Source: Argentina anserina
Lineage: Eukaryota > Streptophyta > Magnoliopsida > Rosales > Rosaceae
DNA length: 64,000 nt
Direction: 5' to 3'
Assembly: GCF_933775445.1 (NCBI RefSeq)
Contig: NC_065874.1
Span: forward strand, 29,458,501-29,522,500
The notes below the pieces were generated by a model. It was not told the DNA's origin. It did not search any database and saw only the letters and a list, made by a program, of their open reading frames with translations. Of this stretch, positions 2,183 through 64,000 are shown one piece after another. Each line of letters starts with the position of its first letter. The first letter of the stretch is position 1. A program made the position numbers and the translations under genes.

Positions 2183-2367
2183 TGTTTGAGGATGAAATAC
2201 TTGTATATTATTGAATGATATGGGGGCCTATATATAGGCATTTACAACACCACAATCCCGTAGGATTCGGAGTCCTAATCTACTACGGAGATGCTAATCT
2301 ATCTCCTAACAGGAAACCTATTAGGCTAAGACACACACAAGGGTAGAATAGTAATTCTCCCGGAACA
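2183..2367 (-). repeat. 3' LTR of copia A
   Basis: 185 bp beginning TGTTTGAGG and ending CCGGAACA on the plus strand (TG...CA ends). It is identical to 9306-9490. The adjoining plus-strand ctcccccttgt is the complement of the polypurine tract. Confidence 0.95.
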
Positions 2368-2554: not shown

Positions 2555-5500
2555 CTAGTGTTCCGATAAACGACGCATGCCAATGCTCTTCACATGTTTC
2601 ACAAAAGTAGATTTAGGCAAAGACTTGGTGAACAAATCCGCAACATTGGATTCTGAACTCACTTGATTAATCTGAACATTCAAGAACTTCTGTTGTTGAA
2701 CGTTGTAGAAGAACTTAGGCGAAATATGCTTGGTGTTGTCTCCCTTGATGAAACCTAACTTTGTCTGCTCTATGCAAGCAGCATTATCTTCATAAATGCA
2801 CGTAGGTTGATCAGTTGTAGAGACTAATCCACAAGAATCACGAATATGGCGAACAAGTGATCGTAGCCAAACACATTCTTTCACTGCTTCATGGAGAGCG
2901 ATGATCTCCGCGTGATTCGAAGAAGTAGCAACAAGAGATTGCTTTATGGATCTCCAAGATATCACCGTATTCCCAATGGTAAACACATAACCGGTTTGAG
3001 AACGAGCCTTGTGAGGGTCAGAGAGGTACCCTGCGTCGGCATAACCAACTAACAAGTTGTTTGGAGTCTTTGCATCGGGGGATAGAGCTGCACGGGACCG
3101 GTGGCTGCTCTCGGCACCGCGCACGGTCTCCACGCCATGGCGGCCGGCGGCGTACGGCGGCAAGGCCGGGGTCGGCGACGGCGGTGGTGTGGGGAGATAC
3201 CGTGGCGGTGTTCTCTCTGCAATAGGGGTAGAACAATCCCATGTCAAGGGAACCTTTCAAGTATCGAAACAAATGCTTGATTCCATTCCAATGACGTAGC
3301 GTGGGTGCGGAGCTAAATCTAGCCAATAAGTTCACTGCGAAAGATATGTCCGGTCTAGTGCATTGAGCAAGATACAATAGTGCCCCAATCGCACTAAGGT
3401 ATGGAACTTCAAGACCAAGAACGTCTTCATCATCCTCTTTAGGACGGAAGGGATCCTTCTTGATATCTAGACTTCGGACGACCATGGGAGTAGACAATGG
3501 ACTGCATAGATCCATATTGAAACGTCGAAGCATCTTCTGCGTGTAATTTGACTGATGCACTAAGATGCCGTCGGCCCTATGCACAAGCTCAAGGCCGAGA
3601 CAGAATTTCGTCCTCCCTAGGTCTTTCATCTCAAATTCCGACTTCAGATAAGACACGGTCTCTTCAATCTCATCAAGAGTACCGATTATGTTCATGTCAT
3701 CAACGTAGACCGCAACGATGACGAATCCGGAATTTGTCTTTCGTATGAACACGCATGGGCATAGTTCATCATTCTTGTAACCCCTTCTCACCAAGTATTG
3801 ATGCAACCGATTGTACCACATTCTTCCGGATTGCTTTAACCCGTACAACGAACGACGTAATCTGACTGCATGAGCACTCCGTGGTCTGGAGGCACTTGAT
3901 GGAGGTAAAGGTAGTCCCTCAAGAGCTTTTATGTATATCTCTGCGTCAAGATCCCCATAGAGATAAGCTGTGACCACATCCATAAGCTGCATGTTTAGTC
4001 TTTCGGACACTACCAGACTAATAAGGTAGCGGAAGGTAATGATGTCCATAACAGGAGAATAAGTCTCTTCATAGTCAATACCAGGTCGTTGTGAGAATCC
4101 TTGCGCCACGAGTCTTGCCTTATAACGCACGATCTCGTTCATCTCATTACGCTTACCAACGAAGACCCATTTATGTCCAACAGGTTTGACATCTCTTGGA
4201 GTCAATTCAACCTTTCCGAAGACTTCTCGCTTCGCTAATGAGTCAAGTTCTGCCTGGATTGCTTCCTTCCACTTCGGCCAATCTGCTCTGCGTTCGCATT
4301 CAGCTACAGAGCGAGGTTCAACGTCGTCTTCAGATATGATCTCAAGTGCGACGGAATAAGCGAAAACGTCATCAATGCATGTGGTGGCTCGGTTTCGGAC
4401 CGACTGCTCACTTGTGTAGTTCACTAAGATTTCGTTGTTCTCTGGCATCAAACAAGGTTCCATAGCGTCCCACGGAAACACTTGAGTTGATTCATGGACA
4501 TAGCTGTAATCAGAGACAACTTCATACGATGGTGATTCATCGTTGATGACGCGCTGTGCCTTAGTCATTCGCTTCTTTCTAGGTTTTGAATCCCTAGAGT
4601 TTATCGGTCTTCCCCTTTTTCTTTGAGGAGCCGAGGCCGAAGCTGCTCCATGCCGGGCCATCTCGGCATCGTCGCCACAAGGGGCGCCGGCAACACCACG
4701 GCGTACGGTGGTGCCGCCATCGGCCTCCGTCCCACTGTCAGGGGCGGTGCCAACGTTGCTAGGTCCAGGAGCTTGTCTTCCACGCCCATATTTCGGGACA
4801 TCCAACCGTGCCGGTACGTTCGCAGCGGGTATGTTTGATCTCGTCACTTTAGCAATATCTACAAAGCCGTCGGGCATCGAATCCGCGACTTTCTGGAGGT
4901 CGATAATGCGTTGCACTTCTAACTCACTTTGAGCAGTGCGGGGATCATAATGAGACATAGTGGGGACACACCACGTCAATTCCTGACGTTCATTTGGAAT
5001 GATAACATTCCCATCTCCCCCTAACGACGGGAAGCATGTCTCATCAAAGTGACAATCTGCAAATCTTGCAGTAAAGAGATCTCCGGTGGTTGGTTCTAAG
5101 TAGCGGACAATCGTTGGGGAATTATAGCCAACATAGATACCTAATCGTCTCTGAGGACCCATCTTAGTACGCAGCGGAGGCGTAATAGGCACATAAACGG
5201 CGCAACCAAAGATGCGTAAGTGTGAAATATTGGGTTCGTAACCAGTTACCATCTGGTACGCACTAAACGCTTGGTTAGCCGCGGGTCGGAAACGAATAAG
5301 TGTCGCTGCATGCAACACTGCATATCCCCACGCAGAGACCGGCATGTTAGTACCCATAACCATTGCCCGAGCAACAAGCTGAATACGCTTGATGGTAGCC
5401 TCTGCTAGACCGTTCTGTGAATGAACATGAGGAACGGGATGTTCAACTTCGATCCCAATAGACATGCAGTAATCATCAAAAGTTTTGGAGGTGAATTCTC

Positions 5501-6530
5501 CAGCATTATCCAAACGAATGGATTTGATAGTATAATCGGGGTGGTGAGCCCGAAGTTTGATGATCTCAGCTAATAACTTAGCAAATGCAGCATTCCTTGT
5601 GGATAGCAATGCGACGTGTGACCAACGCGTCGATGCATCAACCAATACCATAAAATATCGAAAAGGTCCGCATTCTGGTTGAATAGGTCCACAAATGTCA
5701 CCTTGGATACGTTGTAAGAATGGAATGTTCTCGGTTGAAGCCTTAGCAAAAGAAGGACTTCCTTGAAATTTAGCAAGAGAACAAGCTTTGCAAAACGAGC
5801 GATGGGCATCAGAAATTGCCATGGAGGCATGTGAAAGCACGGGAGGCATCACAAGCTCCTGTGAAGGAGGGGATGCCGCCACCGACGGCATGAAAGCCAT
5901 GGAGCTGCCGAGTGAGGCATGCTCGGCCTCACCATGCGGTGCATGGGTCGGCACGGCCTCACCGTGCGGAGCACGGGTGAGGTGATCCTCCAATCGCTTC
6001 CGGGACTTGAAAAATGGATGATCATGTGAATTCTTAAGAATTCTAATCATCATATCACGTCCAGGGTGCCCAAGACGGGCATGCCAAAGCATATAAGAGT
6101 CCGAATCACAAAAGTTGCGTTCAACCGCATATGATTCAAAGATCCGAATGGAAGTAAGATTCAAACCATTCCCAAGACTCTTCATCTTCTCTAAGATGCG
6201 GCGATGGCCTGCTTTCTCAGAGGTAACGCAAAGATACTCCTCTCCATTCTCAACATAAGTATCGAGGTGAAAACCATTGGCACGTATGTCCTTAAAACTT
6301 AGCAAGGTGCGGGGAGACTTCGGCGCATAAAGAGCGTCTACGACGTTAAGAGTCGTACCATTAGGCAACATGAAAGAAGCAGTGCCTCTTCCCTGAATGA
6401 TGGATTTCGAGCCAATCATTGTAGTCATCGAAGAAGTCGAAAACACTAGATCCGTGAACAACTGCCTGTGCCGTAGGACAGTGTGGGTGGTTCCGCAATC
6501 AGCTAGACATTCGATTTCACCGCGGGACAT
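2555..6530 (-). pseudogene. pol of copia A (protease, integrase, RT, RNase H), frameshifted
   Basis: The polyprotein would process gag, integrate cDNA and copy RNA. The frame opens with ATG at 6530 and reaches ADCGTTHTVL within about 15 residues. This aligns with the retroviral-type aspartic protease site, with Cys where Ser or Thr is usual. It is followed by the integrase zinc-finger His pair (WHARLGH), the integrase core (GDICGP, LDNAGEF, NGLAEA), reverse transcriptase with YVDD near 3700, and RNase H (YADAGYLSD, YEDNAAC). Compared with the intact copy at 59534-63520, 11 bases are missing near 3145-3152 in the RT/RNase H linker. The first frame therefore runs out at 3018, and RNase H continues in another frame (from within 3247 to 2555). 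ATG 6530 follows a splice-acceptor-like tttgtag. Confidence 0.92.
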
Positions 6531-6829
6531 CTACAAAATGACAATTAAGAGAGTCAGCGACACGGGAATAATTCTATACAATACGCCGTAGGATATTGTA
6601 AGAAAGGGAATCGGAACAAAGTGCGATTCCATCGAATGTATCACATGGCAATAGTACTACATTCTTCAACTAAAGAGTTGGAAATCATGGTATTGAAGCA
6701 GTGAAATACCAAACAGTAAACGAGGGTGGTAGAAACCATCCAATAATGGTGTGGAAACACACACAAAGAGTACCGGTGAGTGCATATAACGGACTTGGAG
6801 AAAACCGGAAAAACAAACCGGAAAACCAT

Positions 6830-7160
6830 GTCAAAAGAACTCTAAACCGGGTGAATTTTGGACGAGGAAAACGTGGCAGCAGGGGCTGCTGCAATATGCC
6901 GGAAGAATCACGAGAAAACGACGAAAAATCGTCGAAAAACTCGGTGGAAAACCGCCGACACCTATTGCCGGAAAAACCGGCCGGCGGCTGTCGAAACTGG
7001 CCGGTATGGAGGCCGGGACTTCAGGTCCGACAGGGGACGCCGGCAGGGACCGAGTGGCGGTGCCGGAAACGCCGGGAAATGGCCGGAAGACGGCGAATAC
7101 GCCGGAAAAACGTGCCGGAAACGCCGGAATAGTAACCGGGGCCGGCCAAGGCAAAACGAC
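6830..7160. repeat. CCGGAA-rich inter-ORF segment of copia A
   Basis: GC-rich stretch between gag and pol, built of irregular repeats of the ccggaaacgccgg kind. Short open frames on both strands are by-products of this composition. A diverged counterpart exists in element C (about 30130-30480), so it is an old family trait and not a recent insertion. Confidence 0.6.
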
Positions 7161-7497
7161 GTCGTTTTCGACGTTCCGAGGTTCGTTTTCCGAATTTTAA
7201 GTTCCAAATTCACAATGTAGTGCTATTGGGGTCCCATGTGACCCAAAAAGCGTCCAATTTAAAAACCACGTGAGTTGCACACGTTGATCATCATGCTAAG
7301 TGTCGGATAAATAAAATTCTCAAAAAGAGATCGTCTTGTAAGCAAGAAATGAGAAATTTTATTGAATGCCAATCTTTAATACATCACACATGAACTTCTA
7401 ATTCCAAAATCAAAAGACTATTACAAAGTCAATGAAAATAACAATGGCGGTCGGCCATAACAATACTTGAATCATAAAGCTAAAGAAGCTAAAACGA

Positions 7498-8565
7498 CTA
7501 ATCAAAGTCGGGAGTATCCATGGTAGCAACCGGAGGCCTAGCTTTAGAAGCAAGGGGCTCGGGTTTCATGGAGATATGGTGAGTCTCGATCTCATGGTCC
7601 TCATCCACATGATTCGATTCGGGTTGTAGAAACTTCTTGTAGGCGGAGTAAGCCTTGATCATCTCTTTGCTAGCGCGACAATCGCGATTAAAGTGCTTGA
7701 AGGAGCCACATTTGAAGCATGGAGACTTGCCATTACCGGAAGTGGAGGCATTAGGAGGTGCACGGCCTCCTTGGAGTGTGGGACGGGGACGGCCTCCCCC
7801 TGAGGGTGCGGCGCCGCCACCATCACGGGTCCATGTATTGGACCGAGGCCGAGATCGGCCTTGTTGCCTCCCACCACGAGAGTTGTTATTTTGGTGCTGA
7901 TATGGAGCGTTCCTTGATTGATTCTTTTGCTTAGGAGCTTTCCCATAGTTAGCCTGTGGCGTAGAAATTCTTTTAGTGCCAACAGGTCTATTGTTGTTGT
8001 TGAGGAGAATCTCAGAATGTCTCTCCTTCTTAGCTAAGAGTGCCATTAAGTCGGCAAAAGACCGGATCTTCCCTTCCTCTACATGAGTGCGGTACGTATG
8101 AGCTTGAACCTCATAGTTGATTGGAAACGTGTCCAATGTCTTATTGAGAAGATCTAGGTCGGTCTTGATGACACCAACAGTGCCAAGATCGGATTGCAAG
8201 CATAGCATATCCTGATTGAAATCATCCACTCTCTTATAGTCCAATAGACGGATGTTATCCCATCTAACGGTCAATTCAGGAAGAAGCTTATCATGAACGT
8301 TGTTGTACCGCATGCGTAGTTTGTCCCATAATTCTTTAGGATCTTTTACGTTCAAGTATTGCCTCTTGAGAGTTGCATGGATGTGACGTCTCATAAAGAT
8401 GAGAGTCTGAGTCTTAGCCATAGGTGGGAAATCAGCAGGAGAGTCGGCAAACATGCCTTCAATCCCTCGGCTCTCAAACGCGAGTTCCATGTCGGAAACC
8501 CAGCGGTGGTATTCCTTTCCTTCTAGATCAAGAAGGCCAAATTCCGGTCGAGATGGCGATGACAT
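7498..8565 (-). CDS. gag protein of copia A
   Basis: A 355-residue nucleocapsid-type protein that would form the virus-like particle and bind element RNA. The N-terminal two thirds has the alpha-helical gag organisation typical of plant copia elements (LWDKLRMRYNN near residue 90; FNQDMLCLQSDLG in the middle). A basic, glycine- and arginine-rich stretch (about 220-270) precedes one CCHC zinc knuckle, CFKCGSFKHFNRDC, near residue 285. The ATG at 8565 is the first in frame and lies immediately after an acceptor-like tttgtag. The ORF ends about 970 bases before pol, so ribosomal frameshifting or stop readthrough cannot link the two. Copy D lacks it and copy C has lost it. Confidence 0.9.
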   Translation of the reverse strand: MSSPSRPEFGLLDLEGKEYHRWVSDMELAFESRGIEGMFADSPADFPPMAKTQTLIFMRRHIHATLKRQYLNVKDPKELWDKLRMRYNNVHDKLLPELTVRWDNIRLLDYKRVDDFNQDMLCLQSDLGTVGVIKTDLDLLNKTLDTFPINYEVQAHTYRTHVEEGKIRSFADLMALLAKKERHSEILLNNNNRPVGTKRISTPQANYGKAPKQKNQSRNAPYQHQNNNSRGGRQQGRSRPRSNTWTRDGGGAAPSGGGRPRPTLQGGRAPPNASTSGNGKSPCFKCGSFKHFNRDCRASKEMIKAYSAYKKFLQPESNHVDEDHEIETHHISMKPEPLASKARPPVATMDTPDFD

Positions 8566-8911
8566 CTACAAAACGAATACGGAATCGATTAGATTCAAGT
8601 ATAATAGGAATTAGAAGGGGTGACGTATATGGTCACAAGAAAAATCGATGCAAGCGGCGATACTCATGATCGCACCCAAAACAGTGGTGCACTCAGGCGA
8701 CCACACAAAAATCAATTAACTTCCCTTTCAAAACAATCGTGACTCCCCCAGGACCGTCACACAGAAAACATCGACCAAGAGGGGAAACCCATCCCTCTAT
8801 AGTCTCATCGGCGTTATAAGAAAGGCCGGAATTAAGACAAGAAGAAGGCTAATAGCGCCCGATATAATATATCTATACGTTCAAAAGCGGGAACGTTTAT
8901 AAAAATTTACC

Positions 8912-9305
8912 TTGGGAGGTTTGTAGTATACGGGAGTAGCTTCTCTTGAGCGAAGTCCTTGCTTGTGACTTTCACGTCTCTTGCGTGAATATGTGGGAGG
9001 AGCAATTTTGAGTGATTTGATGCGGGAACTTGCGGGGCAAAAAGATTTCTTTGCGGAGCGAATGCAGAGGAAGCGTTGCGGGGCTGCGGGGCTGCAGGGC
9101 TGCGGGGCTTGCGAGGGCAGGGGCTGCGAGGGCAGGCAGGGGCTGCGGCGGCGGCAGGAGGTTGCGGCGGCAGCAGGGGGTTGCGGCGACAGCAGGCAGG
9201 GGCTGCAGCGGCGGCAGGAAGCTTGCGGCGGCGGAGGAAGGGAAGAAAAAAAATTTCGGAAGGCTCTAAAAGATTCAGGGTTTTTAGGGCTTCGTGCTGA
9301 TAACG
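8912..9305 (-). other. 5' leader exon of copia A
   Basis: Untranslated leader between the 5' LTR and the splice donor. Sense sequence starts cgttatcagcacgaag directly after the LTR. This is where the primer site should be, and it shares only the TATCAG core with the usual tRNA-iMet site. The middle (about 9060-9240) is a GC-rich imperfect repeat. Long open frames on the plus strand here reflect base composition only. Confidence 0.7.
9060..9240. repeat. GC-rich microsatellite-like array in copia A leader
   Basis: Repeats of gcggggctg and ggcggcagcag kind, with a strong purine/pyrimidine bias between strands. The equivalent position holds a different array in D (63604-63830) and a C-rich array in C (28280-28560). 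Confidence 0.8.
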
Positions 9306-9490
9306 TGTTTGAGGATGAAATACTTGTATATTATTGAATGATATGGGGGCCTATATATAGGCATTTACAACACCACAATCCCGTAGGATTCGGAGTCCTA
9401 ATCTACTACGGAGATGCTAATCTATCTCCTAACAGGAAACCTATTAGGCTAAGACACACACAAGGGTAGAATAGTAATTCTCCCGGAACA
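9306..9490 (-). repeat. 5' LTR of copia A
   Basis: 185 bp, identical to 2183-2367. It is followed by the TSD attag at 9491-9495. In sense orientation it should hold the promoter. The sense strand contains a tatatatagg segment as a possible TATA element. Confidence 0.95.
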
Positions 9491-24242: not shown

Positions 24243-24296
24243 CACAAATCTCTCCCTTAGTGTTTCTCTCTTTACACACAATCAGGCCCTTTGCAG

Positions 24297-24309
24297 AGCT
24301 CTGATACCA
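24297..24309 (-). other. primer binding site of copia B
   Basis: Sense-strand tggtatcagagct, complementary to the 3' end of initiator tRNA-Met, two bases downstream of the 5' LTR. Confidence 0.9.
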
Positions 24310-24312
24310 GAT

Positions 24313-32982: not shown

Positions 32983-33093
32983 TGTAGAACGATAATCTGA
33001 AAACCAACAAGAGAATGCAGACACGTATACAAATAAATGTAATTTATTGAATATCAAGCGCGGGGTTACAATCTTTGGTGAACTCCTCTGATT

Positions 33094-33588
33094 CTATCTC
33101 CGTATGTGATTTGGCTCAAGGGTGATATGCACTTGATCTTGAGGATTTGAGTTTGATTTGAATTTGATTTGATGAAGAACGAGCGATTTGGCCGCTTGAT
33201 GATTCTTCGTGGACTTGAGTTTGGATTGGATTTGGATTTGATGAAGAAGGAGCGATTTGGCCGCTTGATGATTCTTCGCGGACTTGAGGTTGGATTTGGA
33301 TTTGGATTTGATGAAGAACGAGCGATTTGACCGCTTGATGATTCTTCGTGGACTTGAGGTTGAATTTGGATTTGATGAAGAACGAGCGATTTGGCCGCTT
33401 GATGATTCTTCGTGGACTTGAGGTTGGATTTGGATTTGAGGAAGAACGAGCGATTTGGCCGCTTGATGATTCTTCGTGGATTTGATGATCTTCGTGGACT
33501 TGAGAGACTTCGGGATTTTTCGAGAGTGATTCTTGCTCGAGTGATTTCTCTCCTTCTTCTCCAAGTCTAAAAATCCCCCTCTCTTCAT
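33094..33588 (-). other. repetitive 164-codon ORF inside the gypsy LTR
   Basis: A frame starting MKRGGFLDLEKKER that crosses the whole minisatellite without a stop. It gives a Lys/Ser/Gln-rich protein of STKNHQAAKSL repeats. An identical-length frame is in the 5' LTR (47832-48326). The frame is kept open despite repeat-length changes because the units are mostly multiples of three. No known domain. It could be incidental. In the rearranged gag region a variant of it is fused to gag. Confidence 0.4.
33150..33500 (-). repeat. minisatellite in the gypsy LTR
   Basis: About five copies of a unit near 60 bp (core gagcgatttggccgcttgat, then gattcttcgtggacttga), varying by extra gatttg hexamers. It is repeated in the other LTR (47890-48240) and, with fewer copies, in the internal fragment (45950-46200). 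On the sense strand it is open and encodes KNHQAAKSL-type repeats. Confidence 0.9.
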
Positions 33589-34012
33589 GTTGAAGGGGTC
33601 TATTTATAGAGTCAAAATTTCTATTTTGTAGAATATTTTAATGACATTAAAATAATAAATTCTTTAATTGTATAATTAAATCAATATGTATTTTCCGATT
33701 AATTTAAAATTAGTTATTCTCATAACTAAATTAAACAGAAAATAATTGATTTAATTATGACTGTTAAGAAATTTATTAATTTAATCAAATATCCGATTAC
33801 CATTTCGAATCGTCAATGACATTCAATTTTCTGATGCAATTCGGAATCACGTAGCTTCGATTACGATCATCCGTTTATGTGCTGACACGAGTTTTATTCG
33901 GATCCGCACCAACTTTGTTGACTTTTGGTCACGTGTGCAATTTTTTCGGGCTCTTGGTCGATTTAATTATTTAACGAAGATAATTTACTTCATTAAATTT
34001 CATGTGTCTACA

Positions 34013-38900: not shown

Positions 38901-39035
38901 GCTGATCTAAAACAGAAGAAGAGTCAAATCCGAGAGATTCCAGAACTGACTGCAGCAGAGATTGAAGAGGCAAAGAAGTTGCGAGCCAATTTTGAAGAAC
39001 ATCGTAGGAGCTTCAAGGGTTTGACCTGGATATGA
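35958..39035 (+). CDS. plant mobile domain (PMD) gene carried antisense in the gypsy element
   Basis: The N-terminal part (35958-37316) has the aminotransferase-like plant mobile domain layout: TECYWEWVEDVLSRN, LYRAVFASWFSYDR, FCEYWCPATNTLHTSQGEMSISLLDLQHIGGLPILG and, later, LPFHYLYGWLGEYF. Host PMD proteins (MAIN/MAIL type) act in gene silencing and development, and related domains occur in transposons. Near 37305 one base shifts the frame, and the domain continues in 37311-38044 (LISLRSGFVSLRQDSWRVVEPYNP). A GT-AG intron (38045-38156, phase 0) joins HVE to LEDIGYF, and a second candidate (38296-38373, 78 bp) keeps frame. The end (to 39035) is a coiled-coil rich in Glu, Gln and Lys. The frame change may mark a pseudogene. 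It is convergent with pol, 315 bp away. Confidence 0.72.
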
Positions 39036-39350
39036 TAACTGACTTGAATGATCAGGACTTGCTCCTTTTTTTTTCAATCATTTTGTAATCAATCGATTTT
39101 GCAATTCAACTTATTGTCGGTGAAATAAGAATTTGATTTATGATTGGCAGACAAAACTCCCCTTTTTTTATTTTTTATTTTGATGTGACTGAACTTAAGA
39201 TTGTTATTCTCAAGCTGCCTACGTATCCTTTTTAAAGAAGGAATCAAGTCATCACGTAGTTCAAGGGGTTTTTTTTTTGTTTTTTTTTTTGTGTGTCTTG
39301 CGCAGTTTAAGCTCGTGCAGACTTGGAGCATACTTTGTTTTTTTTTTTTT

Positions 39351-42300: not shown

Positions 42301-44060
42301 TTCTTCTTGACAGGAATAATGTTTGCGATCCACTTGGGATACTGAACCTCTCTAATGAAGCCTGCGGCAATCAACTTATCAACTTCTGCTTCAATTTGAG
42401 GAATAAGTTCTGTTCGAAAACGTCTTTGTGTTTGCTTGGTCGGCCGAGCCTCTGGTTTGACAGCAAGTCGATGAACTGCTACTTTTGGATCTAGGCCGGG
42501 CATTTCTTTGTACGTCCAAGCAAATACATCTTTGTACTCGAGCAACAGATCAAGATGTTCTTTTTCTTCTTCAGAACTTAAAGACGCACTCACAAAAATA
42601 GGTCTTGGGTCTTCCTCTGTTCCCAAGTTAATCTCCTTAAGTTCATCCATAGTGGCTTGCCCCCCGTCTTCAAGTTCTGGAGGAGCTTCGTCTACTTCAA
42701 TTTCAAAATCTTCATGATCGTCTTCCTCTACGGCATCTGCTTCTGCCACCGTGACATGATAAGAAGTTTGGACAATGTCATCATCACCGTCATTATCGAG
42801 GTTGCCATCTCCTTTTTGGCCAGTGAATATGATGATATGTTGCTTCACTTTGAGTTGATCCGTGGAATTCACTTCCAACATACAATGCCTCTTCATGCGT
42901 GACGGGATAAGACTTCGGATTTCCTTGCTCTCCGCTTGACCACAAGTCATTTTCCTCTTGCATATCTGTCGTTCCTCAGGTGCTTGGATCCTTTCCAACG
43001 CAGGCTTTCGCGGAATGAGGTTTGCATTTTGCCTATCTTTGTCTGAACTTGACATCCTTTTGAATACGGAAGGCCGGGTGGTTGTAATACCGATGCGATT
43101 GAAGACTGAACCTCTACTTGATGTCATGTTCACACGGTCAAAAACCGACACCCTTGTGATTGATCCTTCATTGTGTTCAGATATTGCACTTCGGGAACCT
43201 GGACGAATGCGATCGAACGACGAAATGCGAGGGGTTGACTGAACCTCTCGACTCTTCTCTTCGACCACCTCGACACTGATATGTTGCACATTGGCTCGCT
43301 CTGCCCTTCTTCTTCCTGAAATTCTAATAGGCTTGCTCGAAGTGAAACCGAGACCAGCTTTAGAAGAATCAATTGTTGCCCCTTGCTCTCTTAACTTCTT
43401 TTGTGACTCATCGAGCTCATGCGCCCTCCTTGCTGCAGCCTGGTCGTCCTTTTTACTTGATGAACCAAAGTCGTATCCGGCCTTTTCTAACAGCTTGTAT
43501 GCGTTAGGATCGAACCCTTCACTTGTTCTTTTCTTGGGCAGCGATCCATGTTCCGTCTTACCTTGAATCGGTTTGACAAACCCCTCTAGTGGCTGCTTTT
43601 TGGGATTTCGGTTGTTCATCTTTATTAATGGCAATGTTGACTCCTCCTTCAACAATTTCACATCATCCTCTTCTAATTTTCGTGGGCAATCTTGTGACTT
43701 TGTCCCCACAAATGGGGACTCCCCCTCCCTTCGTCTAGACTTCGGAACATAGCGAAGGACCGAAAATGCATGGCTGGCTTTTCTTTCTGCAGAGGATGTT
43801 GCCACTTCAGATGAGACTTTTTGTGACACTTCACCATAAAGCTCAATGTCTTTTGATTTGGCATCATTCTCCCTAACTTTAGCGGCTTTCCCCGTGGAGG
43901 GTACTCCGACCGGAATGACTTCTTTCATTGACTCCTCATCTGTGTAGAATTTAGAATCCGCAAAGTATGATTCGGCTTCTGTGAAAGGTTTAGTATCTCC
44001 AACCACGGTTTTCACACCTCCGCGATAGAACTTGAAGCATTGGTGCAAAGTGGATGGCAC
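39351..44060 (-). pseudogene. pol of gypsy element (RT, RNase H, integrase), nonsense-interrupted
   Basis: Continues in frame from the protease part upstream, after a TAG at 44079-44081 placed where related proteins have Trp (GRP then stop then HENGIVPS). RT has FPLPIIELMVDAT, MPFGLKNAGATYQR and YVDDLVV (about 41975). An RNase H follows the RT (LGALLAQENE). A second RNase H with FDGSSRADGAG and ADALANLAA covers about 40720-41080. Integrase has HSGVCGAH...CQACQFH, DAIGP, TDNAK and NGLAEAFNK. A further in-frame TAA at 39735-39737 cuts off the last 121 residues (RPRSFQVDDLV, SKWDGPYVV), which form the usual integrase C-terminal domain and end at 39351. Otherwise the frame is open. Confidence 0.9.
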
Positions 44061-44078
44061 GATGCCATTTTCATGTAC

Positions 44079-45749
44079 CTATGGTCGTCCCAGCAACAAG
44101 TTGTACGAGGTCTTGGCATCGATGACATGGAACAAAGTGTTTGATTTTAGCTCTCCAATGTCCATGTCTAGTCTGATCATCCCTATCGCTCTTTGTCCTC
44201 CTTGGTTGAAACCTTGGATCATGAGACGACTCCTTGACAACTCATCAACGTTGATGCCGAGTTGAGACATGGTTGACTTGGGCATGATATTCACTGCTGA
44301 CCCTCCGTCTATGAGCATGCGATTCAACTTCCGCTCTCGCATGTACCCTGTCACAAAAAGAGGTCGATTATGTGGCTTAGAGCCCAATTGGAGGTCATCA
44401 TCCGTGAAGTGAATGGTATCACAATATGCATCACACACGCCACATTCTTTCATGCTTGTGGAGTGTTTTCCTACGTCGATAAGCAACTCCACAAGTGCGC
44501 GTCTCGTTGATTTTGGCAATTGCATCAAGTCAGAGAGGCTAAGTTGGGAAGGTAGACTCTCCAATTGTTTCAACACCTCATTCTTCTTTAACACTTGACT
44601 TGCACCTGTTTCTGTTGCTTCAGGTTTCTCGTCTTCTTTGGAGCTAACTTCACAACTCATGGCCATTGAAGTGACATTCGGTTGTTTTGTCGGCAAGAAT
44701 TCTTTTGACAAGTTCCGGCGAAGATGTTTATGCAAATGTGGAACGACTTTCGTTTCAAAATGTCCTCGTCCATTATCCTTCATGCGGGGATGTGATTTCT
44801 TATGACTTGGTCGGGCAACCGGTGAGTTTGGCATCATACCTTTGCGAGTTCTTCTTCGGGTGACCAATATCCATCCTTCATCATCGGCATTAGAGGCAAC
44901 TTGGAGGGTAGGCGTGGAAGCAGGACATTCTTTAACTTCTTTGGTCTTCTTATGTTCGCGCGCCTCCTTTATGAAACAGAACGGTGCTTTCATCAGGTGA
45001 AAAGAGAGTGGAACTGGCTCGAACGACCCGAATGTTACGGTAGTGCAATTGACTTCAGCAATGTCGTCAACGTCCAGCTCAATCTTCCCTTGCTTGGCGA
45101 GGTTCATTATCAAATCCTTGAGAACAAAGCACTTCTCTATAGGGTGACTAACGAGACGATGATATTTGCAATACTTCGGATCGTTGACTCGATGCATTTC
45201 TTCTGGACGTTTGCACTCCGGAAGCTCTATTATCTTGTTTTCGAGCAAATCCTCTAACATGCCCGCCACATCAGAGTCTGGGAACGGGTACGTCTTTCGC
45301 TCCATCTCCTTTAACGTGCGTTTACTCCTATCGTAGGTTCGAGGAGGTTCCACCTTATTAAATTCTTTCTTATCCCGCGTAGAGATCTTAACCGGTGCAG
45401 TATTGATGACCATTGATTCTTTGGAAGGCTTCTTCACAACCTTGTCAAATCTGCTTCCGAAGACTTTCTCTTTTCGTTGGTCGACCAAGGTTTCATTCTT
45501 CCCCTTATGACTTGCCAAGCTTAGCTCCATGTCGTGGGCTCGAGTAGCCAACTCCTCGAAAGAACGAGGCTTGATTCCTTGCAAGATGTATAACAAATCA
45601 AAGTGCATGCCTTGGATGCACATTTCAACGGCTGACACCTCTGACAGTCGATCCTTGCAATCAAGGCTAAGTGAGCGCCATCTATTGATGTAACCAATCG
45701 CGGGTTCATCCTTCCGTTGCTTCGTGTTAGTTAGCTCCATCATGCTCAC
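44079..45749 (-). pseudogene. gypsy gag C-terminal part and aspartic protease
   Basis: The first about 105 residues (MMELTNTKQRKDEPAIGYIN...) repeat part of the gag encoded at 46302-46612. Next come basic linker sequence, DPKYCKYHRLVSHPIEKCFVLK (a His/Cys motif usual in Tat-type gag) and the protease LIDGGSAVNIMP with YNLLLGRP at the end. The frame stops at TAG 44079-44081, in frame with pol. In sense direction this part is preceded by a primer-site-like sequence and an LTR fragment, so its own gag N-terminus is missing. Confidence 0.85.
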
Positions 45750-45771
45750 CGTCCCACTAGGCGTGCCAATT

Positions 45772-46297
45772 TGTAGAACGCGAATCTGAAAACAAATAAG
45801 AATGCAGACATGTGTACAAATAAATGTAATTTATTGAATATCAAGCACGGGGTTACAATCTTTGGTGAACTCCTCTGATTCTATCTCCGTATGTGATTTG
45901 TCTCAAGGGTGACATGCACTTGATCTTGAGGATTTGAGTTTGATTTGGATTTGACTTGATGAAGAACGAGCGATTTGGCCGCTTGATGATTCTTCGTGGA
46001 CTTGAGTTTGGATTGGATTTGGATTTGATGAAGAAAGAGCGATTTGGCCGCTTGATGATTCTTCGTGGACTTGAGGTTGGATTTGGATTTGATGAAGAAT
46101 GAGCGATTTGGCCGCTTGATGATTCTTCGTGGACTTGAGGTTGAATTTGGATTTGATGAAGAAAGAGCGATTTAGTGGCTTGACGATTCTTCGTGGATTT
46201 GATGATCTTCGTGGACTTGAGAGACTTCGGGATTTGTCGAGAGTGATTCTTGCTCAAGTGATTTCTCTCCTTATTCTCCAAGTCTAAAAAAATCCTC
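45772..46297 (-). repeat. internal fragment of the gypsy LTR
   Basis: Starts tgtagaacg like the LTR and runs through the minisatellite to agtctaaaaa, matching about 590 bases of the LTR (47721 to about 48310) with fewer repeat units. On the sense side it is followed by aattggcacgcctagtggga (45752-45771), the same sequence that follows the true 5' LTR (47701-47720). An LTR end plus primer region therefore lies in the middle of gag. Confidence 0.9.
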
Positions 46298-47650
46298 TCC
46301 TCGTCAAATCTGCTTCCGAAAACTTTATATGTTCGTTGGTCAACCAGGGACTCATTCTTTCTTTTATGACTTGCCAAGCTTAGCTCCATGTCGTGGGCTC
46401 GAGTAGCCAACTCTTCGAAAGAACGAGGCTTGATTCCTTGCAAGATGTATAGCAAATCAAAATGCATGCCTTGGATGCACATTTCAACGGCTGACACCTC
46501 TGACAGTCGGTCCTTGCAATCAAGGCTAAGTGAGCGCCATCTATTGATGTAGCCGATCGCGGGTTCATCATTTCGTTGCTTCGTGTTAGTTAGCTCCATC
46601 ATGCTCACCGTTCGCCTTGTACTATAGAATCGATTAAGGAACTCGCGCTCCATTTGGTCCCAACTGTCAACATACTCCGGTTCTAAATCTGTATACCACT
46701 CAAATGCATTTCCCTTCAACGAGCGAACAAACTGCTTGACAAGGTGATCGCCTTCTGTCCCGGCGTTACTGCAAGTCTCCACAAAGTGGGCGACATGTTG
46801 TTTTGGGTTCCCTTTACCTTCAAATTGTTGGAAATTTGGTGGCTGATACCCTCGCGGCATCCTTAAGCTGTCGATCCTCTTAGTGTAAGGTTTGGAGTAA
46901 GTGAGGGAGTCACGAGAAGGACCTCCATATTGAGCCTGAATTGAGTTGGTGATGATGTCCTGTAATTGCTGGAGTGATAAGGAACCAAGCGAGTCGCCAT
47001 CGTTCTTGGACGTTTCTCCCTTTTCATTTACTTTGCTCCTGTCAGGTGACCCCTTGGTGGAGTTATCATCATTTTGATCTTCCAACTTGCTATAGAGCTC
47101 AGCGATTTGCACATACTTTTCTTCAACCGTTCGGGTGAGCTTTTCAACCATCTCCAATAGATTGGAGAGTTGCTCCTCGACTGTGGATGTCCCCGTCACC
47201 AAGACCTACGCATTGTCAGAAGAGGATTCATGTGTCATAGAATGAAAGTTATCACCATCTTCTTTGGGACTTCCATGGTATGATGCCGTGCTTGATTCGT
47301 CATCAGAGAAAACGTCTTCTAGGATAGGGTCATCACCATGAACGGGTAGAAGAGATTGCTCACTTGGCTCCTTCTCCTTTGACACTTGCTTCTTCCCGCT
47401 TTGAAAGGCATGCTCTATTGCTCCCAAGCTCTCCAAGGTGATGACTGGTTGACGAGGCTTACTAGCAAGTGCCATGAACGTCGTGGGTTGAGCTCTAGCC
47501 ACGCTCCGGGTGACAAGGGCAATCGGTTCACTCTTCGATTTGGAGGATGTTTGCTTGGACTTCTTGACCAGCTCGGCCTCTCTGCTTAACCTCGCGGTTG
47601 TGGACTTGGATTTCTTCGTTGGAACGACTTGATTGTTCTTGGAAGCCATC
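45853..47650 (-). pseudogene. gypsy pre-gag and gag N-terminal part, fused to LTR sequence
   Basis: From ATG 47650 (MASKNNQVVPTKKSKS) a basic, Ser-rich 148-codon region runs to an in-frame TAG (47206-47208). The same frame then continues as gag: a coiled-coil-like start (VEEQLSNLLEMVEKLTRTVEE) and the retrotransposon gag domain (FQQFEGKGNPKQHVAHFVE, FEWYTDLEP, FLNRFYSTRRTVSMMEL, MHFDLLYILQGIKPRSFEEL). After SRFDEE (about 46300) the frame runs into the internal LTR fragment and adds the LTR-type KNHQAAKSL repeats, ending at 45853. The UAG may be a mutation or a readthrough site. The LTR fusion shows a rearranged gag. Confidence 0.82.
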
Positions 47651-47700
47651 GCACAAACGGATTTGATTTCTTCGGAGAAGGAGATGAGAGGCCAAAAATG

Positions 47701-47720
47701 TCCCACTGGGCGTGCCAATT
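47701..47720 (-). other. primer binding region of the gypsy element
   Basis: Sense aattggcacgcccagtggga, directly after the 5' LTR. The tRNA was not identified from sequence alone. A near copy follows the internal LTR fragment at 45752-45771. Confidence 0.6.
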
Positions 47721-48750
47721 TGTAGAACGATAATCTGAAAACCAACAAGAGAATGCAGACACGTATACAAATAAATGTAATTTCTTGAATATCAAGCGCG
47801 GGGTTACAATCTTTGGTGAACTCCTCTGATTCTATCTCCGTATGTGATTTGGCTCAAGGGTGATATGCACTTGATCTTGAGGATTTGAGTTTGATTTGAA
47901 TTTGATTTGATGAAGAACGAGCGATTTGGCCGCTTGATGATTCTTCGTGGACTTGAGTTTGGATTGGATTTGGATTTGATGAAGAAGGAGCGATTTGGCC
48001 GCTTGATGATTCTTCGCGGACTTGAGGTTGGATTTGGATTTGGATTTGATGAAGAACGAGCGATTTGACCGCTTGATGATTCTTCGTGGACTTGAGGTTG
48101 AATTTGGATTTGATGAAGAACGAGCGATTTGGCCGCTTGATGATTCTTCGTGGACTTGAGGTTGGATTTGGATTTGAGGAAGAACGAGCGATTTGGCCGC
48201 TTGATGATTCTTCGTGGATTTGATGATCTTCGTGGACTTGAGAGACTTCGGGATTTTTCGAGAGTGATTCTTGCTTGAGTGATTTCTCTCCTTCTTCTCC
48301 AAGTCTAAAAATCCCCCTCTCTTCATGTTGAAGGGGTCTATTTATAGAGTCAAAATTTCTATTTTGTAGAATATTTTAATGACATTAAAATAATAAATTC
48401 TTTAATTGTATAATTAAATCAATATGTATTTTCCGATTAATTTAAAATTAGTTATTCTCATAACTAAATTAAACAGAAAATAATTGATTTAATTATGACT
48501 GTTAAGAAATTTATTAATTTAATCAAATATCCGATTACCATTTCGAATCGTCAATGACATTCAATTTTCTGATGCAATTCGGAATCACGTAGCTTCGATT
48601 ACGATCATCCGTTTATGTGCTGACACGAGTTTTATTCGGATCCGCACCAAGTTTGTTGACTTTTGGTCACGTGTGCAATTTTTTCGGGCTCTTGGTCGAT
48701 TTAATTATTTAACGAAGATAATTTACTTCATTAAATTTCATGTGTCTACA
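47721..48750 (-). repeat. 5' LTR of the gypsy element
   Basis: 1030 bp, differing from 32983-34012 at about three positions. It contains the minisatellite and the 164-codon ORF (47832-48326). It is followed by the TSD tatat. Confidence 0.95.
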
Positions 48751-58683: not shown

Positions 58684-58787
58684 AAATTCAATCCTATAAG
58701 ATTGTCAAAAAAAAAATCAATCCTATAAAGCTAACTGTTTTTCTTCATCTTCTTCTTGGTAACAAATCCTCTTTAAGTTTTAAAAGA

Positions 58788-59143
58788 GAAATTATTATAT
58801 ATACCCGCTACATATCTCACATGGCATACCCCCTTAATGTTATTAGTCAATATTTTACTGTGATTGTTTCTTATATGTAAAAAAAACTTTTGTCATTTTC
58901 ACTGTGTGCGTGTTAATTATACCATGACGTAATATAATTGGCTAGGTATGCCACATGACAGTGTCACATGGTGTACCCAGCCAATCATATTACGTCATGG
59001 TATAATTAACATACACGCGGTGAAAATGACAAAATATTATTTACACATAAGAACCAATCAGAAACAATCACAGTAAAAAATAGACTAATAACATTAAGGA
59101 TGTACGTCACGTAGGATATGTGGCGGGTATATATAATAATTTC
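58788..59143. mobile_element. foldback MITE, 356 bp
   Basis: Near-complete inverted repeat: gaaattattatatataccc, then ccttaatgttattagtc, ttttactgtgattgtttct and accatgacgtaatat are each found inverted on the other arm. The arms meet near 58967. No coding sequence. The target duplication is unresolved; ttaa on each side is possible if the ends are placed slightly further out. Confidence 0.85.
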
Positions 59144-59162
59144 TTCGTTAATATTATGTGTT

Positions 59163-59347
59163 TGTTTGAGGATGAAATACTTGTATATTATTGAATGATA
59201 TGGGGGCCTATATATAGGCATTTACAACACCACAATCCCGTAGGATTCGGAGTCCTAATCTACTACGGAGATGCTAAACTATCTCCTAACAGGAAACCTA
59301 TTAGGCTAAGACACACACAATGGTAGAATAGTAATTCTCCCGGAACA
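59163..59347 (-). repeat. 3' LTR of copia D
   Basis: 185 bp. It differs from the LTRs of A at about two positions (aaact for aatct, caatgg for caaggg). The polypurine tract complement follows at 59348. Confidence 0.95.
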
Positions 59348-59533: not shown

Positions 59534-62500
59534 CTAGTGTTCCGATAAACGACGCATGCCAATGCTCTTCACATGTTTCACAAAAGTAGATTTAGGCAAA
59601 GACTTAGTGAACAAATCCGCAACATTGGATTCTGAACTCACTTGATTGATCTGAACATTCAAGAACTTCTGTTGTTGAACGTTGTAGAAGAACATAGGCG
59701 AAATATGCTTGGTGTTGTCTCCCTTGATGAAACCTAACTTTGTCTGCTCTATGCAAGCAGCATTATCTTCATAAATGCACGTAGGTTGATCAGTTGTAGA
59801 GACTAATCCACAAGAATCACGAATATGGCGAACACGTGATCGTAGCCAAACACATTCTTTCACTGCTTCATGGAGAGCGATGATCTCCGCGTGATTCGAA
59901 GAAGTAGCAACAAGAGATTGCTTTGTGGATCTCCAAGATATCGCCGTATTCCCAATGGTAAACACATACCCGGTTTGGGAACGAGCCTTGTGAGGGTCAG
60001 AGAGGTACCCTGCGTCGGCATAACCAACTAACAAGTTGTTTGAAGTCTTTGCATCGGAGGAAAGAGCTGCACGGGACCGGTGGCTGCTCTCGGTACCGCG
60101 CACGGTCTCCACGCCATGGCGGCCGGTGGCATCGCTGCGTTGTACGGCGGCAAGGCCGGGGTCGGCGACGGCGGTGGTGTGGGGAGATACCGTGGCGGTG
60201 TTCTCTCTGCAATAGGGGTAGAACAATCCCATGTCAATGGAACCTTTTAAGTATCGAAACAAATGCTTGATTCCATTCCAATGACGTAGCGTAGGTGCGG
60301 AGCTAAATCTAGCCAATAAGTTCACTGCGAAAGATATGTCCGGTCTAGTGCATTGAGCAAGATACAATAGTGCCCCAATCGCACTAAGGTATGGAACTTC
60401 AAGACCAAGAACGTCTTCATCATCCTCTTTAGGACGGAAGGGATCCTTCTTGATATCTAGACTTCGGACGACCATGGGAGTAGACAATGGACTGCATAGA
60501 TCCATATTGAAACGTCGAAGCATCTTCTGCGTGTAATTTGACTGATGCACTAAGATGCCGTCGGCCCTATGCACAAGCTCAAGGCCGAGACAGAATTTCG
60601 TCCTCCCTAGGTCTTTCATCTCAAATTCCGACTTCAGATAAGACACGGTCTCTTCAATCTCATCAAGAGTACCGATTATGTTCATGTCATCAACGTAGAC
60701 CGCAACGATGACGAATCCGGAATTTGTCTTTCGTATGAACAAGCATGGGCATAGTTCATCATTCTTGTAACCCCTTCTCACCAAGTATTGATGCAACCGA
60801 TTGTACCACATTCTTCCGGATTGCTTTAACCCGTACAACGAACGACGTAATCTGACTGCATGAGCACTCCGTGGTCTGGAGGCACTTGATGGAGGTAAAG
60901 GTAGTCCCTCTGGAGCTTTCATGTATATCTCTGCGTCAAGATCCCCATAGAGATAAGTTGTGACCACATCCATAAGCTGCATGTTTAGTCTTTCGGACAC
61001 TACCAGACTAATAAGGTAGCGGAAGGTAATGATGTCCATAACGGGAGAATAAGTCTCTTCATAGTCAATACCAGGTCGTTGTGAGAATCCTTGCGCCACG
61101 AGTCTTGCCTTATAGCGCACGATCTCGTTCATCTCATTACGCTTACGAACGAAGACCCATTTATGTCCAACAGGTTTGACATCTCTTGGAATCAATTCAA
61201 CCTTTCCGAAGACTTCTCGCTTCGCTAATGAGTCAAGTTCAAACTGGATTGCTTCCTTCCACTTCGGCCAATCTGCTCTGCGTTCACATTCAGCTACAGA
61301 GCGAGGTTCAACGTCATCTTCAGATATGATCTCATGTGCGACGGAATAAGCGAAAACGTCATCAATGCATGTAGTGGCTCGGTTTCGGACCGACTGCTCA
61401 CTTGTGTAGTTCACTGAGATTTCGTTGTTCTCTGGCATCAAACAAGGTTCCATAGCGTCCCACGGTAACACTTGGGTTGATTCATGGACATAGCTGTAAT
61501 CAGAGACAACTTCATACGATGGTGATTCATCGTTGATGACGCGCTGTGCCTTAGTCATTCGCTTCTTTCTAGGTTTTGAATCCCTAGAGTTTATCGGTCT
61601 CCCCCTTTTTCTTTGAGGAGCCGAGGCCGAAGCTGCTCCATGCCGGGCCATCTCAGCATCGTCGCCACAAGGGGCGCCGGCAACACCACGGCGTACGGTG
61701 GTGCCGCCGTCGGCCTTCGTCCCACTGTCAGGGGCAGTGCCAACGTTGCTAGGTCCAGGAGCTTGTCTTCCACGCCCGTATTTCGGGACATCCAACCGTG
61801 CCGGTACGTTCGCAGCGGGTATGTTTGATCTCGTCACTTTAGCAATATCTACAAAGCCGTCGGGCATCGAATCCGCGACTTTCTGGAGGTCGATAATGCG
61901 TTGCACTTCTAACTCACTTTGAGCAGTGCGGGGATCATAATGAGACATAGTAGGGACACACCACGTCAATTCCTGACGTTCATTTGGAATGATAACATTC
62001 CCATCTCCCCCTAACGATGGGAAGCATGTCTCATCAAAGTGACAATCTACAAATCTTGCAGTAAAGAGATCTCCGGTGGTTGGTTCTAAGTAGCGGACAA
62101 TCGTTGGGGAATTATAGCCAACATAGATACCTAATCGTCTCTGAGGACCCATCTTAGTACGCAGCGGAGGCGTAATAGGCACATAAACGGCGCAACCAAA
62201 GATGCGTAAGTGTGAAATATTGGGTTCGTAACCAGTTACCATCTGGTACGCACTAAACGCTTGGTTAGCCGCGGGTCGAAAACGAATAAGTGTCGCTGCA
62301 TGCAACACTGCATATCCCCACGCAGAGACCGGCAGGTTAGTACCCATAACCATTGCCCGAGCAACAAGCTGAATACGCTTGATGGTAGCCTCTGCTAGAC
62401 CGTTCTGTGAATGAACATGAGGAACAGGATGTTCAACTTCGATCCCAATAGACATGAAGTAATCATCAAAAGTTTTTGAGGTGAATTCTCCAGCATTATC

Positions 62501-63520
62501 CAAACGGATGGATTTGATAGTATAATCGGGGTGGTGAGCCCGAAGTTTGATGATCTCAGCTAATAACTTAGCAAATGCAGCATTCCTTGTGGATAGCAAT
62601 GCGACGTGTGACCAACGCGTCGATGCATCAACCAATACCATAAAATATCGAAAAGGTCCGCATTCTGGTTGAATAGGTCCACAAATGTCACCTTGGATAC
62701 GTTGTAAGAATGGAATATTCTCGGTTGAAGTCTTAGCAAAAGAAGGACTTCCTTGAAATTTAGCAAGAGAACAAGCTTTGCAAAACGAGCGATGGGCATC
62801 AGAAATTGCCATGGAGGCATGTGAAAGCACGGGAGGCATCACAAGCTCCTGTGAAGGAGGGGATGCCGCCACCGACGGCATGAAAGCCGAGGAGCTGCCG
62901 AGTGGGGCATGCTCGGCCGCACCATGCGGTGCATGGGTAGGCACGGCCTCACCGTGCGGAGCACGGGTGAGGTGATCCTCCAATCGCTTCCGGGACTTGA
63001 AAAATGGATGACCATGTGAATTCTTAAGAATTCTAATCATCATATCATGTCCAGGGTGCCCGAGACGGGCATGCCAAAGCATATAAGAGTCCGAATCACA
63101 AAAGTTGCGTTCAACCGCATATGATTCAAAGATCCGAATGGAAGTAAGATACAAACAATTCCCAAGACTCTTCATCTTCTCTAAGATGCAGCGATGGCCT
63201 GCTTTCTCAGAGGTAACGCAAAGATATTCCTCTCCATTCTCAACATAAGTATCGAGGTGAAAACCATTGGCACGTATGTCCTTAAAACTTAGCAAGGTGC
63301 GGGGAGACTTCGGCGCATAAAGAGCGTCTACGACGTTAAGAGTCGTACCATTAGGCAACATGAAAGAAGCAGTGCCTCTTCCTTGAATGATGGATTTCGA
63401 GCCAATCATTGTAGTCATCGAAGAAGTCGAAAACACTAGATCCGTGAACAACTGCCTGTGCCGTAGGACAGTGTGGGTGGTTCCGCAATCAGCTAGACAT
63501 TCGATTTCACCGCGGGACAT
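59534..63520 (-). CDS. intact pol polyprotein of copia D (protease, integrase, RT, RNase H)
   Basis: 1328 codons with no break. Domains by residue: aspartic protease ADCGTTHTVL (about 10-19; Cys replaces the usual Ser/Thr); integrase zinc finger with WHARLGH at about 148 and CKAC at about 245, an unusually long spacer; integrase core GDICGP (about 277), LDNAGEF (about 343) and NGLAEATIKR (about 376); RT from about 753 with YVDD at about 940; RNase H GYADAGYLSD (about 1164) and YEDNAAC (about 1250). The ATG at 63520 opens directly at the end of the leader and is in perfect register with pol of A. With no gag in the copy, particles would have to be supplied in trans. It is very close to pol of A but keeps the 11 bases that A lost. 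Confidence 0.95.
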   Translation of the reverse strand: MSRGEIECLADCGTTHTVLRHRQLFTDLVFSTSSMTTMIGSKSIIQGRGTASFMLPNGTTLNVVDALYAPKSPRTLLSFKDIRANGFHLDTYVENGEEYLCVTSEKAGHRCILEKMKSLGNCLYLTSIRIFESYAVERNFCDSDSYMLWHARLGHPGHDMMIRILKNSHGHPFFKSRKRLEDHLTRAPHGEAVPTHAPHGAAEHAPLGSSSAFMPSVAASPPSQELVMPPVLSHASMAISDAHRSFCKACSLAKFQGSPSFAKTSTENIPFLQRIQGDICGPIQPECGPFRYFMVLVDASTRWSHVALLSTRNAAFAKLLAEIIKLRAHHPDYTIKSIRLDNAGEFTSKTFDDYFMSIGIEVEHPVPHVHSQNGLAEATIKRIQLVARAMVMGTNLPVSAWGYAVLHAATLIRFRPAANQAFSAYQMVTGYEPNISHLRIFGCAVYVPITPPLRTKMGPQRRLGIYVGYNSPTIVRYLEPTTGDLFTARFVDCHFDETCFPSLGGDGNVIIPNERQELTWCVPTMSHYDPRTAQSELEVQRIIDLQKVADSMPDGFVDIAKVTRSNIPAANVPARLDVPKYGRGRQAPGPSNVGTAPDSGTKADGGTTVRRGVAGAPCGDDAEMARHGAASASAPQRKRGRPINSRDSKPRKKRMTKAQRVINDESPSYEVVSDYSYVHESTQVLPWDAMEPCLMPENNEISVNYTSEQSVRNRATTCIDDVFAYSVAHEIISEDDVEPRSVAECERRADWPKWKEAIQFELDSLAKREVFGKVELIPRDVKPVGHKWVFVRKRNEMNEIVRYKARLVAQGFSQRPGIDYEETYSPVMDIITFRYLISLVVSERLNMQLMDVVTTYLYGDLDAEIYMKAPEGLPLPPSSASRPRSAHAVRLRRSLYGLKQSGRMWYNRLHQYLVRRGYKNDELCPCLFIRKTNSGFVIVAVYVDDMNIIGTLDEIEETVSYLKSEFEMKDLGRTKFCLGLELVHRADGILVHQSNYTQKMLRRFNMDLCSPLSTPMVVRSLDIKKDPFRPKEDDEDVLGLEVPYLSAIGALLYLAQCTRPDISFAVNLLARFSSAPTLRHWNGIKHLFRYLKGSIDMGLFYPYCRENTATVSPHTTAVADPGLAAVQRSDATGRHGVETVRGTESSHRSRAALSSDAKTSNNLLVGYADAGYLSDPHKARSQTGYVFTIGNTAISWRSTKQSLVATSSNHAEIIALHEAVKECVWLRSRVRHIRDSCGLVSTTDQPTCIYEDNAACIEQTKLGFIKGDNTKHISPMFFYNVQQQKFLNVQINQVSSESNVADLFTKSLPKSTFVKHVKSIGMRRLSEH

Positions 63521-63960
63521 CTTGGAGGGTTTGTAGTATACGGGAGTAGCTTCTCTTGAGCGAAGTCCTTGCTTGTGAATTTCACGTCTCTTGCGTGAAT
63601 ATGCGGGGCGAGCAGGCGGCGAACAGGCGCAGCGAGCAGGGCTCGGCGAACAGGCGCGGCGAGCAGGACTCGGCGAGCAGGCGCGGCGAATAGGGCTCGG
63701 CGAACAGGGGCGGCGAGCAGGACTTGGCGAACAGGGGCGGCGAGCAGGCGCGGCGAACAGGAGTGGCGAGCAGGGCTCGGCGAACAGGGGCGGCGACAGG
63801 GGCTGCGAGGGCAGGCAGGGGCTGCGACGGCGGTAGGAGGTTGCGGCGGCAGCAGGAGGTTGCGGCGACGGCAGGAGGCAGCGGTTTGGCGGAGGTAAGG
63901 AAAAAAAAATTTCGGAAGGCTCTAAAAGATTCAGGGTTTTAGGGCTTCGTGCTGATAACG
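63521..63960 (-). other. 5' leader of copia D
   Basis: Homologous to 8912-9305 of A at both ends (tttgtagtatacgggagtag on the pol side; tgctgataacg at the LTR). The centre has a different repeat array. The primer-site region reads cgttatcagcacgaag on the sense strand. Confidence 0.85.
63604..63830. repeat. GC-rich minisatellite in copia D leader
   Basis: About a dozen units of gcgaacaggcgcg / gcgagcagggctcg kind (15-17 bp) followed by gcgacggcgg repeats. The unit differs from that in A and C. Confidence 0.9.
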
Positions 63961-64000
63961 TGTTTGAGGATGAAATACTTGTATATTATTGAATGATATG
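63961..64000 (-). repeat. 5' LTR of copia D (first 40 bp only)
   Basis: Begins tgtttgaggatgaaatac, identical to the start of the other LTRs. It is truncated by the window end. Confidence 0.93.

Follow-up and report, generated by a model that had tools for sequence, protein, structure and literature searches.

Copy D, a gag-less Ty1/copia element in Argentina anserina, is very probably a spliced subgenomic RNA that was reverse transcribed and integrated. Comparison of the copies suggests that its Bianca-like parents splice past gag to supply Pol, and that RNA of this kind has re-integrated at least three times. The DNA analysed (the window) is a stretch of 64,000 nucleotides, C3:29458501-29522500, and the genome searched amounts to 237 Mb in 146 contigs. 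Copy D and its intron-bearing counterpart, copy A, both lie on the minus strand (Table 1).

Structure of copies D and A

Copy D (locus L009) is a complete LTR element: both LTRs are present, GTGTT is duplicated perfectly at its flanks, and its pol reads through 1328 aa without a stop. Its pol contains Pol_BBD, gag_pre-integrs, rve, SH3_retrovirus and RVT_2 domains. In the pol of both D and A the integrase precedes the reverse transcriptase (rve 273-364, RVT_2 777-1017), which is the Ty1/copia order, and the LTRs are flanked by the 5-bp target duplications of a Ty1/copia LTR retrotransposon (ATTAG in A, GTGTT in D). The right flank of D lies beyond the window, and the preliminary description had predicted that it would carry GTGTT. 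The motif is present there, after the 5' LTR (equivalent of 64144), and matches the GTGTT before 59163. An insertion without a matching duplication is thus ruled out, and D occupies an insertion site of its own. Alignment of the two LTRs over 184 bases shows 2 substitutions and 1 gap. With an assumed 1.3e-8 substitutions per site per year, these differences give a rough age of 0.4 million years.

The leader of D ends with CCCTCCAAG at 63521, and the pol ATG follows directly at 63520. This join, described previously, is seen directly in the sequence, and the LTRs, the leader and the intact pol are all retained as had been stated. On the sense strand of A, the exon end CCTCCCAAG at 8911 is followed by GTAAAT at 8910, and TTTTGTAG ends at 6531, directly before the pol ATG at 6530. 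The intervening segment does begin with GTAAAT, end with TTTTGTAG and hold all of gag, but the preliminary description was off by one in its length (2380 bases, not 2381) and in the exon end (8911, not 8912). Comparison of the copies found no part of this 2380-base segment in D. Copy A spans 2183 to 9490 with LTRs of 185 bp each, and from the pol ATG to the 3' LTR it is 98.4% identical to D over 4162 aligned bases. D lacks exactly one GT-AG segment and keeps the rest of the element, as a retrotransposed spliced RNA would. The join is ambiguous by two bases (AG), which permits three placements; the canonical GT-AG placement is reported.

Two further features adjoin these parts of D. The pol frame is open 5' of its ATG, across the entire ATG-free leader and into the LTR (63521-63985). 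On the other side of the element, a 358-bp near-palindrome (58787-59144), 81% self-complementary, ends 13 bases short of the left target duplication.

Table 1. Features of copies D and A within the window.
Feature	Position	Strand	Remarks
D left target duplication, GTGTT	59158..59162	.	right one just past window end, after equivalent of 64144
D 3' LTR, 185 bp	59163..59347	-	
D pol ORF, 1328 aa + stop	59534..63520	-	begins at the ATG adjoining the join
D leader-pol join	63520..63521	-	putative spliced junction
D leader, 440 nt	63521..63960	-	no ATG; primer site at 5' end
D 5' LTR, portion inside window	63961..64000	-	whole LTR ends at equivalent of 64144, 144 bases past window
A 5' LTR	9306..9490	-	target duplication ATTAG at 9491-9495 and 2178-2182
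A leader, 395 nt	8911..9305	-	no ATG; primer site CGTTATCAGCACGA at 9292-9305
A segment missing from D, GTAAAT...TTTTGTAG, 2380 bp	6531..8910	-	putative intron of pol mRNA
A leader donor to gag ATG, 345 nt	8566..8910	-	ends TTTTGTAG; four ATGs; possible intron of gag mRNA
A gag ORF, 355 aa + stop	7498..8565	-	Retrotran_gag_2, E 4e-4, 20.3 bits, under curated cut-off of 27
AATAAA, 135 nt past gag stop	7358..7363	-	possible early poly(A) signal
A pol frame, 1170 aa to first stop	3018..6530	-	remainder in another frame
A 3' LTR	2183..2367	-	identical to A 5' LTR

The genome's own tRNA-Ile(AAT) pairs through its anticodon arm with 14 bases of the primer site CGTTATCAGCACGA, and the sole difference is the first anticodon base. 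That base (A34) is edited to inosine in tRNA-Ile, and a half tRNA-Ile(IAU) primer is a trait of the Bianca lineage (PMC6317226). Bianca elements also carry gag and pol as two separated ORFs, which has been read as a sign that they are expressed by "a unique strategy" (Neumann et al. 2019, PMC6317226). Both traits are found in A, whose gag and pol ORFs lie 967 bp apart. Judged by primer site and ORF layout, the element has published Bianca-lineage traits of Ty1/copia and may be assigned to that lineage. The TGTT/AACA families of Rosaceae, characterized by unusual LTR ends and Ale placement (PMC5659011), do not fit, because the LTR here starts with TG and ends with CA and the primer site is of the half tRNA-Ile type.

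The window contains several other elements. Copy B (19660-24568, target duplication ATTTT) is a copia element of another kind: a single ORF encodes its gag and pol domains together, unlike the split ORFs of A. Copy C (28030 onward), an older Bianca-like copy, was considered as an old witness of the splice sites and set aside, its donor and acceptor regions being decayed. Nested in C is a Ty3/gypsy-type element on the minus strand (32983-48750), with LTRs of about 1 kb that are 99.6% identical, a TATAT target duplication, and gag, RVT_1, two RNase H-type and integrase domains; the pol matches of C break at 32975 and restart at 48805. Within the gypsy element, on the opposite (plus) strand, an ORF at 35937-37313 matches the Pfam plant mobile domain (PMD, E 8e-21) and may be an extra or captured gene.

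Recurrence and origins of the join

The leader-pol join was searched for in the whole genome with at most 3 mismatches tolerated across 26 bases, and reversed sequence served as the control. Four places were found, against none in the control, which argues against chance: D, C6:2681 kb (C6a), C6:3057 kb (C6b) and C4:1863 kb (C4). Further gag-less copies with the identical junction, one of the expectations raised by the preliminary description, thus number three besides D. Because the search targets this one junction, it cannot by itself show that other junctions are absent. No leader-gag join was found in the whole genome at the same threshold. Match counts are lower bounds. Within the stated mismatches, the genome holds at least 183 pol starts, at least 222 leader ends and at least 265 places with the leader donor context, of which 100 each were listed; gag starts preceded by TTTTGTAG occur in at least 243 places.

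Among the joined copies, an exact target duplication could be demonstrated in D only. The flanks of C6a agree at 4 of 5 bases (AAATT/TAATT) and those of C4 at 3 of 5 (TATCA/TGTCC), and no 5' LTR of C6b could be located within 3 kb outside the retrieved stretch. The LTRs differ at 11/185 positions in C6a and 18/184 in C4, and the three copies other than D have early pol stops, at codons 435, 9 and 23. C6a, C6b and C4 are older than D.

A tree was built from the first 1500 bases of pol, with 32 intron-bearing and 4 joined copies and copy C as the outgroup. The four joined copies occupy separate places on it, and three changes are the minimum compatible with its starred branches. A single clade of the four was rejected (AU p 6e-17; p 1e-5 without the long row L033), as was a clade pairing D with each of C6a, C6b and C4; C6a and C6b as sisters were rejected weakly (p 0.03). 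Descent of the four joined copies as one lineage is rejected by these clade tests. Beside the join, the bases found in D, in C6a/C6b and in C4 are not the same, and they vary in the manner of intron-bearing copies. Together, the placements and these bases point to at least three origins of joined copies among intron-bearing relatives.

The leader variants of the joined copies are also found in intron-bearing relatives. The leader end of D, CCCTCCAAG, precedes GTAAAT in 3 among the 100 donors listed, and three copies with a D-type leader end pair with a pol start 2334-2381 bases away. The leader end of C6a and C6b, CCTTCAAAG, also precedes GTAAAT in at least 117 places. C6a shares one leader base, present in 2 of the 17 aligned rows, with the intron-bearing copy at C1:6545 kb, which is also its neighbour on the pol tree (support 89/76, not starred). 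The leader set has some redundancy, since L054, L055, L060 and L061 repeat L041, L042, L040 and L043, and L058 gave no leader. The D leader variant and the nearest pol relatives of D belong to different copies, so some recombination is likely to have been at work as well. A parent of D with equal leader repeats was sought and rejected: among the 40 of 635 candidates that were scored, full-length matches besides D reached at most 77%.

A junction-independent survey of the same region provides a control for ordinary deletions. Among 98 listed pol starts, 35 had no listed leader end, leaving 63 paired copies. The leader-to-pol span is 2319-2424 bases in 55 of them, 0 in D and at least 2706 in three; the remaining four have spans of 1202, 1239, 2007 and 2074 bases. 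The region does suffer deletions, each of these four (4/63) being more than 300 bases shorter, and two of the four have wholly lost gag (L071 at C5:13773 kb and L072 at C3:12615 kb). A genomic deletion or unequal recombination after insertion, with splice-like ends by coincidence, could in the same way have removed the gag region from ordinary copies, and the two-base AG overlap at the join would suit it. However, the deletions in the four short-span copies have scattered, unrelated ends; filler sequence or brief homology is seen at them, GT-AG is not, and these copies retain the donor and the pol acceptor, gag-less L071 and L072 included. D and three further copies, on separate branches, have one exact GT-AG join. 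Scattered junctions had been named as evidence that would speak against splicing, yet none of the four deletions read is splice-like and the four leader-pol joins found agree with one another. An origin of the gag-less copies solely from scattered deletions is rejected on this contrast, and post-insertion loss as the source of the join is highly improbable.

Strand switching occurs in LTR elements, and a reverse transcriptase that switched template on unspliced RNA at a short homology could have skipped the segment. The two bases common to both ends of the join would serve such a switch, but they are little homology, copies whose leaders differ share the identical points, and the splice consensus at both ends accounts for the repeated use, so that we give this route scarcely any credence. 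It is also unlikely, though less remotely so, that splicing gave rise to one copy only and that the others acquired the join by amplification and by leader/pol recombination of co-packaged RNAs. The common CCTTCAAAG leader end of C6a and C6b, the weak rejection of their sisterhood, and the split affinities of the D leader and pol are compatible with a single origin. It is opposed by the clade tests, for all four copies and for D with each of the other three, and by the join-adjacent bases, which vary as in intron-bearing copies; even a single origin needs one splicing event. The reading of D as an integrated reverse transcript of a spliced pol RNA, put forward in the preliminary description, is supported by the exact GT-AG join, the target duplication, the join common to four copies and their separate branches. 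Counting against it are the 2-base overlap at the join, the restriction of an exact target duplication to D, the greater age and early pol stops of the other three joined copies, the signs of recombination in the D leader and pol, and the lack of a leader-gag join although the gag acceptor looks equally good.

Putative splice signals and proposed RNAs

The leader contains few ATGs. Nine of the 12 leaders measured, including that of A, lack any ATG, and the remainder contain 1, 1 and 2, whereas shuffling of mononucleotides predicts 2.6-4.0 in each. All 12 leaders are related to one another rather than independent samples, and L042 was left out as its primer site was not found. By comparison, in A there are fourteen ATGs in the 967 nt ahead of pol and four in the 345 nt ahead of gag. 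Since these ATG-rich stretches precede gag and pol in unspliced RNA and splicing from one donor would place the ATG-free leader before either, splicing would free both starts. The last ~90 nt of the leader before the donor are well conserved across copies. The middle of the leader, at 63615-63800 in D and in leaders elsewhere, consists of fast-changing GC-rich repeats that vary by copy, and leader length ranges from 330 to 600 nt.

At the pol acceptor, TTTTGTAG lies directly 5' of the ATG in 32/32 intron-bearing copies read, including L034, in which the surroundings are altered; the AG is partly selected, as 27 of the 32 came from a search favouring TAG before ATG. The gag ORF has its own acceptor-like TTTTGTAG directly before its ATG. 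One donor could serve both gag and pol. Of 27 other copies, 19 preserve the AATAAA site after gag and three have AATCAA instead; in the remaining five it was not located in its context.

These signals suggest how the element may be expressed. Transcription from the LTR would yield an RNA with a nearly ATG-free leader ending in the 5' splice site AAG/GTAAAT. Splicing to the TTTTGTAG that adjoins the pol ATG would remove gag and make this ATG the first past the leader, so that Pol would be made independently of Gag. A gag mRNA would result if this donor were joined instead to the TTTTGTAG ahead of gag, and the unspliced RNA would serve as the genome. Because the pol mRNA retains the leader, the primer site and the 3' end, it could be packaged by the Gag of other copies, reverse transcribed and integrated. 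DNA copies of the leader-pol-joined RNA include one with an open pol, which is D. We infer that splicing and translation take place in the cell in this way, with use of the gag acceptor and packaging in trans, and D would depend on Gag supplied in trans.

Two explanations may be offered for the absence of leader-gag joins: the gag acceptor may go unused, or the gag RNA may be cut short, perhaps by the AATAAA 135 nt past gag, and so escape reverse transcription. On the second possibility, a wider plan of three RNAs can be put forward tentatively, as a plausible but not the favoured outcome: an unspliced genome, a gag mRNA ended at AATAAA, and a pol mRNA from the same donor. Only the spliced pol RNA would keep both RNA ends, so only it would leak into particles and repeatedly re-enter chromosomes, giving gag-less, pol-only copies that live on the Gag of others. 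Such a plan might be common to Bianca across flowering plants.

Comparison with known systems

The element resembles published Bianca elements in its half tRNA-Ile primer and two separated ORFs, but the inter-ORF distance is 967 bp here versus a published mean of 172 bp (PMC6317226). The part of that account dealing with Bianca describes no splicing or pol-expression mechanism, whereas splicing is proposed here. Bianca is abundant in some strawberry species and accounts for 114/505 full-length elements in Potentilla micrantha (PMC10706760, PMC5893959). The joined copies act as natural cDNAs; they suggest from DNA alone how Bianca expresses Pol from a separate ORF, and they give exact junctions to seek in existing RNA data.

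Ogre elements of Ty3/gypsy likewise have two ORFs and an intervening stretch that some of the transcripts lose by splicing; there, gag-pro is joined to the rest by splicing, whereas here the entire gag would be removed (cited via PMC6317226). As with Ty1 carrying an engineered intron, intron-free new copies reveal an RNA intermediate, but that intron is artificial (cited via PMC12786077), while here it would be native to the element, and gag goes with it when it is lost.

The closest analogue is provided by foamy viruses, in which a dedicated spliced mRNA yields Pol independently of Gag (PMC2194720), as is proposed here from DNA. These are retroviruses, with an acceptor that lies inside gag, judging by the cited title; here the element is a copia and the acceptor is at the pol ATG, behind gag. 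No spliced copia pol mRNA, or integrated copy of one, was seen in the literature searched, outside which most subscription papers fall. Splicing past gag to pol in copia with repeated integration is therefore unreported in the literature searched, while splicing for Gag in copia and spliced pol in foamy viruses are known.

Among copia elements, alternative splicing separates the supply of Gag from that of Pol in BARE1 (PMC3735527), EVD (PMC8892269) and Drosophila copia (via PMC3735527). In these systems splicing favours Gag and disables pol, whereas here it would remove gag (PMC3735527, PMC8892269). The spliced gag RNA of EVD ends early (PMC8892269), and the authors of the BARE1 work report finding no barley DNA copied from the spliced RNA (PMC3735527). 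The BARE authors argued that re-entry of spliced retrotransposon RNA into the genome must be avoided (PMC3735527); the joined copies described here suggest that such RNA is able to re-enter.
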